A stretch of 64,000 bases of DNA from Nesterenkonia sandarakina (GTDB taxonomy: Bacteria; Actinomycetota; Actinomycetes; Actinomycetales; Micrococcaceae). This document shows positions 18,796 to 43,177 of the stretch, piece by piece (the stretch's first letter is position 1; the number at the start of each line of letters is the position of its first letter). A program made the position numbers and the translations under genes. Below the pieces are notes generated by a model that saw only the letters and a program-made list of their open reading frames with translations, ran no database searches and had not been told where the DNA came from. Location: contig NZ_JACCFQ010000001.1 of NCBI RefSeq assembly GCF_013410215.1, forward strand, positions 2,046,001 through 2,110,000, read 5' to 3'.

Positions 18796-18863
18796 TGAGG
18801 GGCGGATTCTCCGACTATCTAGGGCCCTTTTCGGCCTCAGATGCTCGCAGAATCCGCCCCTCA
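18796..18863. repeat. Dispersed hairpin element, copy A
   Basis: The arms TGAGGGGCGGATTCT (18796-18810) and its exact complement (18849-18863) enclose a centre containing GGGCCCTTTTCGGCC. It lies between the convergent 3' ends of pdtaR and the thiolase gene, where it could act as a two-way terminator. It matches three other copies in the window. Confidence 0.9.
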
Positions 18864-18903
18864 ACGTGTTGGTGGGTGGGGGTGGGTGGCGGGAGCCAGC
18901 GGT

Positions 18904-20094
18904 TCAGCTGCGGACGGTGAGGAGCAGGGCGTCGCCCTGGCCGCCGCCGCCGCACAGCCCGGCAGCTCCGGTGCCCCCGCCGCGGCGCGCCAGCTCCAGA
19001 GCAAGGTGGAGCACCAGGCGCGCCCCGGACATCCCCACCGGGTGGCCCAGGGCGATGGCACCGCCGTTGACGTTGAGCTTCTCCTCCGAGACGCCCAGTT
19101 CCCGGGCCGAGGCCACGCCCACGGCGGCAAAGGCCTCATTGATCTCCACCAGGTCCAGCGCCTCTGGGCTGATGCCCTGCTTGCGGCATGCCTCGGAGAT
19201 GGCTCGCGCGGGCTGCAGCTGCAGGGATGAATCCGGGCCGGCCACCATCCCATAGGCGCCGATCTCCGCCAGGGGAGTGAGCCCGAGCTCCTGGGCCTTC
19301 TCCGGAGTCGTCACGATCACGGCGCAGGCGCCGTCCGAGATCTGCGAGGCCGAGGCGGCCGTGATGGTGCCGGACTTGCCGAAGGCGGGGCGCAGACTGC
19401 TCAGCGATTCCGCCGTGGTGCCCTCTCGGATGCCTTCATCCCGGTGGACCCGTTTCGGATCACCCTTGCGCTGGGGCACCTCGACGGGAACAACCTCCTC
19501 CTCGAAGACGCCGCTCACCCAGGCCTTGGCCGCACGCTCATGGGAGAGCGCGGCGAAGCGGTCCTGGTCCGCACGCGAGACCTCCAGCTCCGCAGTGTTG
19601 CAGGACTCGGTCAGGGCCCCCATGTTCTGCTGGGTGGCCTGATCGTAGAGCGCGTCGTAGGCCATGGAATCCACCAGCGAGGTGTCCCCGAAGCTGAAGC
19701 CCTTCCGGGAGCCCGGCAGAAGGTGTGGGGCATTGGACATCGACTCCATGCCGCCGGCCACGACGAGTTCACACTCGCCGGCGCGGATCAGCTGATCCGC
19801 GTAGGCGATGGCGCTCAGCCCGGACAGGCAGACCTTGTTCACCGTGATCGCTGGTACCTGGGCCGGGATATCGGCTCCCAGCGCGGCGGTGCGGGCCGGG
19901 TTCTGACCGGCTCCGGCCTGGATCACCTGGCCCATGATCACGTAGTCCACCTGGTCCGGCCGGACCCCGGTCTTCTCCAGGGCATCGCGGATCGCGGCTG
20001 ATCCGAGCTGGGCTGCGGTGAATGAGGAGAGCCCGCCCATCAGCTTGCCGATCGGGGTGCGGCAGCCTCCGAGGATGACGGATCCGGGTGCCAT
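18904..20094 (-). CDS. atoB: Acetyl-CoA C-acetyltransferase (thiolase)
   Basis: A 396-residue degradative-type thiolase that splits acetoacetyl-CoA into two acetyl-CoA. The acylated Cys is in [10 protein letters not shown] (about C89). The C-terminal His is in [17 protein letters not shown] (about H351), and the proton-donor Cys is in [10 protein letters not shown] (about C381). It is the last gene of the minus-strand cluster bdhA-scoA-scoB-thiolase and performs the final step of 3-hydroxybutyrate breakdown. About 75 nt separate it from scoB. The symbol follows function; the sequence alone does not rule out a phaA-like biosynthetic role, but context favours breakdown. Confidence 0.94.
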
Positions 20095-20169
20095 AGATGC
20101 TCCTTCGAGGTGGGGATGGTGGTGGTACGGGTTGTGCGTCGTGCGGGGTGTGTGTCGTGAGCCTATGCG

Positions 20170-20835
20170 TCAGCTGCGTCCGTGCAGCTCGACGCCGGTG
20201 GCTTCGCGCACCTGTTCCTCGCTCACCCCCGGTGCGGTCTCCACCAGCACCAGGCGAGGCTCGGCCTCGGTGCCGACCACGTCGATCACGGCAAGGTCGG
20301 TGATGATCCGGTCTACCACGGACTTCCCGGTCAGCGGCAGGGTGCACGCCGGCAGGATCTTCGAAGATCCGTCCCTGGCCACATGGTCCATCAGACAGAT
20401 CACCCGCTCCGCGCCGTGGACCAGGTCCATGGCGCCGCCCATCCCCTTGACCATCTTGCCGGGCACCATCCAGTTGGCCAGGTCCCCGTTCTGTGCGACC
20501 TGCATGCCGCCCAGCACGGCGACGTCGATCTTCCCGCCGCGGATCATCCCGAAGCTGGTGGAGGAGTCGAAGAACGACGCCCCGGGGAGCACGGTGACGG
20601 TCTCCTTGCCGGCGTTGATCAGATCAGGGTCCAGCGCATCCTCGGCGGGGTAGGGGCCCACCCCCAAGATGCCGTTCTCGGACTGGAGCACCACGGTGCG
20701 CTCGGCCGGGATGTGGTTCGGGATCAAGGTGGGCATGCCGATGCCTAGGTTCACGTAGGCGCCGTCGGGAAGCTCCTGGGCGGCACGGGCCGCCATCTGC
20801 TCACGGGTCCAGCCCGCGCGGATCTCGGTGGTCAT
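20170..20835 (-). CDS. scoB: Succinyl-CoA:3-ketoacid CoA-transferase subunit B
   Basis: A 221-residue beta subunit of the transferase that activates acetoacetate with CoA from succinyl-CoA. The start at 20835 gives the family N-terminus [20 protein letters not shown]; a longer open frame upstream is not credible. The catalytic Glu is in LQSENGILG (about E53). Other family segments are [35 protein letters not shown] and [11 protein letters not shown]-like [14 protein letters not shown]. It follows scoA after 7 nt on the minus strand. Confidence 0.95.
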
Positions 20836-20842
20836 GACGCGA

Positions 20843-21625
20843 TCACTCCTTGTCTTCGCTGCGTACGGTGCGCTTCTCGATGGGCTTCTCGATCTCAGGC
20901 CCGACCTGCACGATCCGGTGCACGAAGACCCCGGGCAGGTGCACCGCGTCGGGGTCGATCTCCCCGGGCTCCACGAGCTCCTCCACTTGGGCGATGCAGA
21001 TCCGGCCCGCCATGGCGGCGTCGGGGCTGAACTGCCGGGCGGCCTTGTTGAAGACCAGGTTGCCATGCCGGTCACCGCGCTGGGCGTGGACCAGGGAATA
21101 GTCGGTGACGATCGATTCCTCCAGGACGAACTCCAGGGATCGACCGTCGTGGATCGTGAAGGGACGGACCTCCTTGGGCGCAGACTCCTTCACCACGTTG
21201 CCGGAGCGGTCGTAGGTCATCGGGATGCCGCCCTCGGCGACCTGTGTGCCCACTCCGGAGCGGGTGTAGAACCCCGGGATCCCGGCCCCGCCGGCGCGCA
21301 TCTTCTCCGCCAGCGTGCCCTGGGGGACCAGCTCCAGCTCCAGCTCGCCCTCGAGGTACTGGCGGGCGAACTCCTTGTTCTCCCCGACATAGGAGGAGGT
21401 CATCTTCACGATCCGGCGTGCGGCGAGCAGGATGCCCAGCCCCCAGCCGTCCACGCCGCAGTTGTTCGACGCGACGGAGAGCCCGGAGGCGCCCTGCTCC
21501 AGCAGCGCCTCGATGAGCTGGATCGGATTGCCGGAGAGGCCGAAGCCTCCCACCGCCAAGGAGGCGCCGTCGGGAATGTCGGCGACGGCCTCGGCGGCGC
21601 TCGCCACGGTCTTGTCGATGGTCAT
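20843..21625 (-). CDS. scoA: Succinyl-CoA:3-ketoacid CoA-transferase subunit A
   Basis: A 260-residue alpha subunit of SCOT. The family signature is [23 protein letters not shown] near the N-terminus, followed by [34 protein letters not shown] and [19 protein letters not shown]. It forms the active enzyme with ScoB, encoded 7 nt downstream. Upstream, toward bdhA, is a run of short tandem repeats. Context (3-hydroxybutyrate dehydrogenase, thiolase, transporters) indicates ketone-body catabolism. Confidence 0.95.
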
Positions 21626-21663
21626 GGGTTCTCCTCAGGGACTCAGGGGGCTCAGGAATTCGG

Positions 21664-42309: not shown

Positions 42310-42353
42310 AAGCAAGCGCCCGGTCTCACACGAGACCGGGCGCTTGCTTTTTC
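42310..42353 (+). terminator. Intrinsic terminator of the tRNA cluster
   Basis: An 18-bp perfect stem (42310-42327 with 42332-42349), loop ACAC, then a run of five T including the stem end. It is the strongest classical terminator in the window. Confidence 0.95.
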
Positions 42354-42354
42354 T

Positions 42355-42430
42355 CCGTTGAGCGGCGGAATCTCCGAGCATCTCATGGGCTTTTCGGCCC
42401 CAACTACTCGCAGATTCCGCCCCTCAACGG
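42355..42430. repeat. Dispersed hairpin element, copy C
   Basis: The arms 42355-42373 and 42412-42430 pair over 19 positions with one C-C mismatch. The arm reads GGAATCT opposite AGATTCC where copies A and D have GGATTCT opposite AGAATCC, a compensatory change. It directly follows the tRNA terminator. The centre has GGGCTTTTCGGCCC. Confidence 0.9.
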
Positions 42431-42466
42431 CTTTGGTGCAGCTGCGGGCGTGGGTAGCATGACGAC

Positions 42467-42520
42467 ATGCCACGCCTCGCTGACCTGGGAAGTCTGGTTC
42501 GCCGCAGCGATGCTCGCTAG
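42467..42520 (+). CDS. Possible leaderless 17-residue upstream ORF
   Basis: TAGCAT (42455-42460) stands 6 nt before ATG 42467, the same geometry as the leaderless starts elsewhere in this window. The encoded peptide is MPRLADLGSLVRRSDAR, ending in TAG 36 nt before the next gene. It may be an upstream regulatory ORF of the PH-like gene or simply mark its promoter. I recognise no family and the ORF is short enough to be chance. Confidence 0.35.
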   Translation: MPRLADLGSLVRRSDAR

Positions 42521-42555
42521 GTCAGGCAGCAGTCGCTCCCAGAAAGGCGTTCACC

Positions 42556-43110
42556 ATGGATGAGACTATCCGCACCGTCAGTCACCCGCAGCGGCCCGTG
42601 TACTGGCTGATCTACGGCCTCATGGGGTGGACGGCCGCGATCACCGTGGTCGTCTCCTTCACGTCCCAGGACTCCTCTGTGCAGGGCTCGGTCCTCGCCG
42701 TCGTCGGCTTGGCGCTGGTAGCGGTGCTCCTGGTGGGTGTCATCAAAGTGCTCGTGGTGCACACACGGGCCAGCGTGGAGGAGGGCCTGACGCTCTCCGT
42801 GGGCCCGTTCGTCTCCCGCACGCTCCCCTGGGAGGCGATCCAGTCCATCGAGAAGGCCCCCACCGGGGGCGCGATGGACGTGGGGTGGAAATGGCTGGGG
42901 CCGGGTCGAATCGGGTACCTGGCCGGTGCTGAGAACGTGCTGGTCAAGACCAATGCGGACTTCCGGAGACAGGTCCTTCAGGGAGAGGTCACCGTGGAGG
43001 GCCGGCAGAAGCTTGCGGAATGGTACTTCGTGTCGGTTCCGGAGTCTGAGCTGACGGCGCAGCGCCTGAACCGGATGCGTGAGAGCTCAGACTCCCCACC
43101 CACAGGTTGA
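42556..43110 (+). CDS. Two-helix membrane protein with PH-like cytoplasmic domain
   Basis: A 184-residue protein with an N-terminal polar stretch, membrane segments at about 15-35 and 44-67, and a beta-rich C-terminal domain (LTLSVGPFVSRTLPWEAIQSIEK, then GRIGYLAGAENVLVKT). This layout resembles bacterial PH-domain membrane proteins, but the assignment is uncertain and the function unknown. AAAGG precedes the ATG. Its stop codon lies in the left arm of hairpin element copy D, so the element's insertion may have reset the C-terminus. It converges with the yetF-like gene. Confidence 0.6.
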   Translation: MDETIRTVSHPQRPVYWLIYGLMGWTAAITVVVSFTSQDSSVQGSVLAVVGLALVAVLLVGVIKVLVVHTRASVEEGLTLSVGPFVSRTLPWEAIQSIEKAPTGGAMDVGWKWLGPGRIGYLAGAENVLVKTNADFRRQVLQGEVTVEGRQKLAEWYFVSVPESELTAQRLNRMRESSDSPPTG

Positions 43111-43177
43111 GGGGCGGATTCTGCGTGCATCTCATGGGCTTTTCGGCCCAGAATGCTCGTAGAATCCGCCCCTCAAC
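43106..43177. repeat. Dispersed hairpin element, copy D
   Basis: GTTGAGGGGCGGATTCT (43106-43122) pairs perfectly with 43161-43177. The centre contains CTCATGGGCTTTTCGGCCC, nearly the same as copy C. The TGA of the upstream gene (43108-43110) is part of the left arm. It lies between convergent genes. Confidence 0.92.

Follow-up and report, generated by a model that had tools for sequence, protein, structure and literature searches.

Four palindromes in the window

The window analyzed here, a stretch of 64,000 nucleotides from Nesterenkonia sandarakina (assembly GCF_013410215.1, contig NZ_JACCFQ010000001.1, positions 2,046,001 to 2,110,000), contains four dispersed copies of a nearly perfect palindromic element of 74 nt. 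A first-pass annotation of the sequence had placed these copies, designated A to D, between 18796 and 43177, and all four were present at its positions to within a few bases. Their placement relative to genes had also been given correctly, including that of copy B between divergent genes. In the common register of a covariance model, the copies and the features around them are as follows.

18793..18866, + strand: copy A, 74 nt, between convergent genes for an ANTAR response regulator (17990-18778, +) and an acetyl-CoA acyltransferase (18904-20094, -)
27615..27688, + strand: copy B, 74 nt, between a divergent pair, a CHY zinc-finger gene (27267-27587, -) and ilvD (27717-29642, +)
42309..42350, + strand: palindrome of the tRNA-Glu terminator, 42 nt and then TT, just 5' of copy C and not a member of the family
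42356..42429, + strand: copy C, 74 nt, directly after the tRNA-Glu terminator
42556..43110, + strand: 184-aa open reading frame (ORF) lying between copy C and copy D, without an NCBIfam or Pfam match
43105..43178, + strand: copy D, 74 nt, in the convergent gap between this ORF and a YetF-like DUF421 gene (43199-43732, -)

Among the direct-repeat families of the window the four copies ranked first, and a palindrome scan of the 64 kb (55 to 95 nt, at least 16 of 18 outer pairs) found only these four. In single-strand folding, both strands of all four copies outscored 200 of 200 dinucleotide shuffles, with z values from -3.8 to -10.5. The arm pairing described for the copies was confirmed, with the correction that copy B also carries a T.C and a C.C mismatch in its arms and copy C one C.C mismatch. 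The TGA stop codon of the ORF at 42556-43110 sits within copy D. An Rfam scan of the window returned only four tRNAs above the gathering score and no known RNA family at the copies.

Two nearly identical tandem tRNA-Glu(CTC) genes lie at 42061-42134 and 42225-42300, in 82-nt units that are 96% alike. A conserved palindrome of 48 to 50 nt, AACGTGCAATGCGC..., is identical in three species (window 39447-39496; L087:4639-4686; L104:2899-2948). Beside several copies, a motif around CTCAACGC...GGGTGG that shares the outer end of the element occurs in tandem (window 27683-27760). The same motif was seen in the flanks of L083:934, L084:154, L091:374, L092:7177 and L106:2228, and it perhaps represents arm remnants.

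Distribution of the family

A blastn search of the genome holding the window (hereafter the own genome) with copy D gave 28 matches at 16 places, and the covariance model built from these places gave 36 matches, corresponding to both strands of 18 places. The 18 dispersed copies support the earlier suggestion of a palindrome of the repetitive extragenic palindrome (REP) type; the family extends beyond the four copies of the window, and the arms of copies in related species pair as well. A survey of 58 genomes with the model, comprising 30 of Nesterenkonia (the own genome included) and 28 others of the family and order, gave matches in 15 of the former and in none of the latter. Nine Nesterenkonia genomes were element rich, the own genome with 18 copies and the other eight with approximately 15 to 27 each when two-strand match counts were halved (G011, 25; G012, 22; G016, 27; G018, 21; G019, 15; G021, 17; G022, 16; G027, 25). 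Six of the 30 held 1 to 7 weak matches, and 15 held none.

An exact two-arm pattern matched 43 stretches in a genome collection of 84,980 species, all in Nesterenkonia records, and it had zero matches in viral contigs. Searches of plasmids and phages by blastn with copy D likewise gave zero matches. No description of the family was found among the papers listed for Nesterenkonia, palindromic repeats, actinobacterial REPs and bidirectional terminators, subscription papers excepted. The REP-associated tyrosine transposase (RAYT) that the first-pass annotation had proposed to look for was absent: the domain Y1_Tnp (PF01797) was found neither in the own genome nor in any of the nine element-rich genomes, and among the 30 Nesterenkonia genomes it occurred only in G006, where the covariance model found no copy.

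Copies were unevenly spread along the own chromosome. Nine of 18 neighbor gaps were shorter than 20 kb, a degree of clustering reached in 1 of 20000 simulations, and a single copy of the 18, where 7.4 were expected, was located less than 600 kb from dnaA. Two five-copy clusters (C1, 189-289 kb and 1706-1798 kb) are located 705 to 811 kb from dnaA, one per side, and perhaps derive from a single cluster that was divided by an inversion around the origin.

Structure of the element

The covariance model was run on the window, ten stretches of the own genome and 43 named stretches, yielding 146 matches that represent 73 distinct copies (18 from the own genome and 55 from six named relatives). The element measured 74 nt in 67 of these and 73 nt in 6; lengths in the 43 stretches are partly preselected, because the pattern by which they were picked fixes the gap at 30 to 34 nt, while the 18 own copies were picked independently of it. 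The copies listed for G016, G022 and G027 were 73 to 75 nt long, except for one weak match of 66 nt.

Each element consists of two inverted half-sites of about 21 to 28 bp (CGTTGAGSGGCGGATTCTNCGAGYANYT) that face each other across a center of variable sequence and nearly fixed length. The half-site consensus, pooled from both arms (146 half-sites), is CGTTGAG[G/C]GGCGGA[T/A]TCT[C/G/A]CGA[G/C][C/T]ANYT, in which invariant and free positions are interleaved. The stem comprises 18 to 21 outer pairs, with the outermost columns paired at both ends. The flanks were biased in composition, toward C 5' of the element (64% at -10 to -6) and toward G 3' of it (65% at +6 to +10). This bias was also present on the gene-end-free side of tandem copies, and no such bias was found at element-free gene ends. 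Prolongation of the stem by these flanks was rejected, with in-register pairing of 5.59 against 5.81 in shuffled flanks, of a possible 15 (n = 73).

All 29 arm matches with at most one mismatch in the own genome belonged to paired elements, which argues that this genome contains no larger element with these ends. Since lone half-sites numbered zero at 0 to 1 mismatch, a motif resembling an uptake sequence was ruled out there; at two mismatches a few single matches appeared, with similar numbers in the control. No target duplication was seen in the copy flanks, by eye only. As a canonical terminator the element falls short, the hairpin being without a U-tract and the sequence after it G-rich on both strands; a T5 or A5 run outside the element was present in 4 element gaps.

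Position relative to genes

Genes were called with a custom codon-usage gene caller, whose starts are approximate. Of the 73 copies, 36 occupied convergent gaps and 29 tandem gaps; divergent gaps accounted for 5 and locus edges for 2, and the remaining copy fell inside a called ORF. A count of positions relative to gene ends, as the first-pass annotation had proposed, placed 62 of the 73 at -6 to 35 bp from a stop codon, and in 7 the element itself donates the TGA stop codon. Tandem copies were closer to the upstream stop than to the next start in 24 of 29 cases. The enrichment in convergent gaps (odds ratio, 17.6) is only indicative, as the background consists of loci chosen for holding copies. 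Short convergent gaps with an element (n = 24; 40 to 300 bp) had a median length of 117 bp and mostly left little room for a second terminator.

The same 483.5 kb contained 14 unrelated palindromes (at least 15 of 16 outer pairs, 40 to 100 nt). Every one of the 14 occupied a convergent or tandem gap, and 8 lay at most 21 bp from a stop. Thus, strong palindromes mark gene ends in these sequences.

Inheritance among related species

Many copies are common to several species at orthologous places, as judged by shared flanking genes. Copy A has orthologs in E16_10, LB17, aurantiaca and Act20, with only an arm remnant in G021, and copy B has orthologs in aurantiaca and E16_10. Orthologous groups were formed from flanking genes by single linkage, which mixed neighboring copies at two loci, and identities were compared among 137 same-group cross-species pairs, 409 other within-species pairs and 2074 other between-species pairs, with 8 same-group pairs from the same species set apart. 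In that order, mean values were 0.913, 0.893 and 0.886 for the arms, 0.712, 0.551 and 0.546 for the center and 0.497, 0.456 and 0.454 for 25 nt of flank. Because the arms are similar in orthologs and unrelated copies alike, while the center follows descent and the flanks have drifted, the sequence of the arms, and not their fold alone, is conserved. Homogenization of arms within a genome was rejected, given the nearly equal arm identities of copies within a genome and of nonorthologous copies between species.

Two orthologous sites without the element, one in G021 (thiolase gap) and one in G022 (tRNA-Glu locus), still carry 13 to 14 nt of a single arm, which looks like loss rather than an empty site. 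At the locus of copies C and D, two copies surround different segments in the own genome, E16_10 and sandarakina; aurantiaca, Act20 and an uncultured strain have a single copy, with C-like surroundings on the left and D-like surroundings on the right. In the window, copies C and D have the same orientation and bracket the family-less ORF at 42556-43110, where relatives carry a single copy or another segment.

Pairing and sequence conservation

Covariation was examined in the 67 copies of 74 nt, leaving out the six of 73 nt, with shuffle tests uncorrected for relatedness. Eight arm pairs (16 columns) were invariant. Pair 8/67 stood out among the stem pairs (46 GC, 9 CG), with pairing far above chance that 0 of 300 shuffles reached. 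A modest excess was found at 19/56, 12/63 and 14/61, reached by 5, 6 and 16 of 300 shuffles, and at pair 24/51 pairing was below that of its shuffles. Compensatory changes had been claimed for two copies: the one in copy B falls on pair 12/63 and is borne out to this modest degree, whereas the one in copy C falls on pair 15/60, where pairing was 0.69 both observed and shuffled.

The second helix that had been proposed for the center was rejected, since no antidiagonal stood out and no run of covarying pairs was found, a lone central pair, 32/43, showing a modest excess (11 of 300). RNAalifold gave no covariation credit (+0.48 kcal/mol), with two-sided change in 4 of 21 pairs. Mutual information was set aside as proof of pairing because it does not discriminate on its own, the corrected value for stem pair 8/67 (0.302) being equaled by that of the unpaired columns 32/53 (0.301). 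On the sense strand of the 29 tandem copies, 12 of 609 cells were G-U and 10 were A-C; with no G-U preference, selection on a transcript hairpin was rejected on this measure. Most free positions of the half-site varied independently in the two halves.

A subfamily of 16 copies in G002 had nearly invariant arms, and pairing at its three most variable stem positions was no better than in shuffled sets (77, 86 and 267 of 500). Together with the invariant arm pairs, these results indicate that within a lineage conservation of the sequence is no weaker than that of the pairing. The earlier view that the fold rather than the sequence is selected therefore goes too far within the clade, where arm identity is about 0.89 to 0.91 whatever the relation of the copies; it is right at the range of the genus, where the same design recurs with other arms that still pair.

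Palindromes with other arms in the genus

The weak matches of the model in other Nesterenkonia were palindromes of 72 to 75 nt that mostly shared the end type and all differed in their arms. A scan of the 21 Nesterenkonia genomes outside the rich nine with the pattern TYGAGNGGN{47,61}CCNCTCRA found 72 places in 12 genomes, against 0 to 9 per genome in a backward control. About 65 of these were full palindromes by eye (17/17 in G002, 17/17 in G003, 12/14 in G024, 7/7 in G008, 4/4 in G015, 3/4 in G023, 3/3 in G020 and 2/2 in G009); G013, G017, G028 and G029 each had a single place, which was not a full palindrome. When counted mechanically (15 or more of 20 outer pairs; 50 loci in five of these genomes), palindromes numbered 55, and two of them (TTGAGTCG and TTGAGCGAACC types) may not be related. 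Measured from first T to last A, the G002 palindromes were 64 nt long in 16 cases and 69 nt in one, and those of the other genomes were 69 to 72 nt. Thirteen of 17 copies in G003 and 15 of 17 labeled copies in G024 and G008 lay at most 40 bp from a stop, and those of G002 lay at -23 to 28. A looser scan (15 of 18 pairs) also found unrelated palindromes inside genes, 19 in G024 and G008 and 2 in G003. Across 395 genomes of the family, counts outside Nesterenkonia were at most 8 among the matches listed and mostly near the control; among these matches, at least one (G412) looks palindromic.

Five gene 3' ends bear palindromes with different arms in different lineages. They include an SseB-domain gene (Pfam) shared by G002 and G024/G008, a dicarboxylate-symporter junction shared by G003 and G024/G008, with both flanks matching and arms that are diverged with a similar start, and three further ends identified by blastp of flanking ORFs. 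By chance 0.67 such ends would be expected (Poisson P = 0.0006), an estimate that rests on a rough figure of 25 flanking genes per genome. Collectively, one design recurs with other arms, in some cases at the same gene ends; at the scale of the genus, arm sequence is thus less lasting than design, length and, in some cases, place.

Another dispersed palindrome, GCGATGACTCCG..., lies at convergent gene ends of G024 and G008 and lacks the TYGAG end (L256:1277-1340, L261:1358-1421, L270:1190-1249). In G003, the inner part (GGGCCCTTATGACGCC) of a palindrome at L251:4763-4838 resembles the G002 subfamily, and its outer arms differ.

Interpretation

The copies are dispersed, lie just past stop codons, are inherited at orthologous places and keep their arms while their flanks drift; elsewhere in the genus, other arms replace them. 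Our preferred reading, held tentatively, is of a REP-like extragenic palindrome that lacks a RAYT and probably acts as a two-way boundary between transcription units. Copies would have arisen by copying within a lineage through some enzyme and would have been kept as boundaries. Such a boundary may stop or trim transcripts arriving from either direction, acting as a U-less hairpin, as a DNA site bound by an arm-reading factor, or as both; the factor would then differ between lineages. A two-way boundary is favored because unrelated strong palindromes also lie at gene ends here and because transcript ends with U-less hairpins, as well as two-way ends, are reported for Streptomyces in the accessible text of PMC8269248. 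The proximity to stop codons, the share of convergent gaps and the bias of tandem copies toward the upstream stop were also counted in its favor, as were the small space for a second terminator in most short convergent gaps, the high identity of arms beside drifted flanks and the recurrence of the design with other arms at the same gene ends in other lineages.

Several observations weigh against a boundary role. There is no RNA wobble preference in the tandem copies, and the invariant arm pairs show sequence conservation beyond the needs of pairing. Five of the 73 copies lie between divergent genes, where copy B is found, and a tRNA terminator already precedes copy C. A terminator scan made no terminator-like call at the window copies, although the same scan also missed the tRNA terminator. 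In the thiolase gap of G021 the element was lost and no hairpin of like strength replaced it (-21 and -26 kcal/mol), so the element is dispensable there.

The copying implied by lineage-specific arm types in many copies would be expected of a selfish or relic mobile element, a minimal nonautonomous transposon whose inverted ends are recognized in trans and whose landing or survival is best just past genes, without a host role. This account is possible if doubtful. Clustering along the chromosome agrees with it, as do the location and stop-codon donation that REPs share in the accessible text of PMC3733652. However, the element-rich genomes have no Y1 transposase, every close arm match in the own genome lies in a paired element, and no target duplication was seen by eye. 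Further, orthologous copies retain their arms as flanks drift, unlike decaying insertions, and the two element-free sites, with 13 to 14 nt of arm, look like losses.

A broader proposal, which we regard as unlikely, is that these palindromes are genus-wide DNA marks of gene ends, whose arms would have been replaced in concert in each lineage while length, symmetry and even gene positions were kept. This would be the sign of a co-evolving trans factor that reads the sequence, either derived from a transposase or concerned with transcription ends.

Quite unlikely, in our judgment, is a double-stranded DNA site whose two half-sites, held at a constant spacing (74 bp, or some seven turns), would be bound by a chromosome-organizing protein or one that blocks polymerases or replication forks. 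The interleaved invariant and free positions, the independence of most free positions between halves and the symmetric flank composition without in-register pairing are consistent with such a site, but pair 8/67 does covary and a candidate protein is lacking. Fixed length around a variable center also agrees with it, although the need for a long stem alone would keep length nearly fixed. Similarly, the scarcity of copies near dnaA fits a chromosome-organizing role, but copies are unevenly spread and neighbors are not independent events.

A recombination or cassette site, at which segments are gained or lost between two copies, is very improbable: the C and D locus, with two copies around different segments or a single copy flanked C-like on the left and D-like on the right, is the single clear case, ordinary recombination between repeats suffices for it, and the outer boxes of integron attC sites have the opposite order to those of the element.

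The family bears on the question of how palindromic repeats spread and persist when they lack a transposase. Nesterenkonia is a compact case for it: the bacteria are cultivable, copies are orthologous between species, arm types are specific to lineages and the same gene ends can bear different arms, so that dispersal and host function are separable by experiment. If the boundary role is true, a repeat family would be serving as a standard two-way gene end.

Comparison with known repeat classes

Miniature inverted-repeat transposable elements are, as a class, short, noncoding, dispersed and bounded by inverted repeats, and the Nesterenkonia element resembles them in these respects. It differs in that no larger partner with the same ends was found in the own genome and in that its arms do not decay at orthologous sites.

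REPs, in the accessible text of PMC3733652, are mostly located less than 20 bp from the 3' ends of genes and contribute stop codons. The GTAG REPs described there are palindromes of 20 to 40 bp with an unpaired GTAG tag at one end. The Nesterenkonia element is like this superfamily in forming dispersed palindromes of several types per genome that crowd past gene 3' ends, occupy convergent or tandem gaps and lend stop codons. Unlike GTAG REPs, it is 74 nt long with stems of at least 18 pairs, is paired at both ends without an unpaired GTAG tag, is less numerous, and abounds in genomes without a RAYT; Nesterenkonia also stands outside the phyla that this text names for tagged REPs. CGTC REPs, as characterized in the same portion of PMC3733652, have stems of 8 to 9 bp, loops of 4 to 5 nt and an unpaired CGTC tag. 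They are similar in that no dedicated transposase is known and some Nesterenkonia subfamilies end in CGTCGAG, whereas the CGTC stretch of the element is paired at both ends, within a stem of 18 to 21 outer pairs.

The U-less (I-shaped) and bidirectional ends of actinobacterial transcripts, insofar as the accessible text of PMC8269248 describes them, share with the element a strong GC hairpin without a U-tract that convergent genes have in common. They are not a repeat family, whereas the Nesterenkonia element shares sequence and length across loci and species. Since it departs from REPs in size, in the unpaired tag and in the RAYT, the element is filed as a transposase-less variant of extragenic palindromes.

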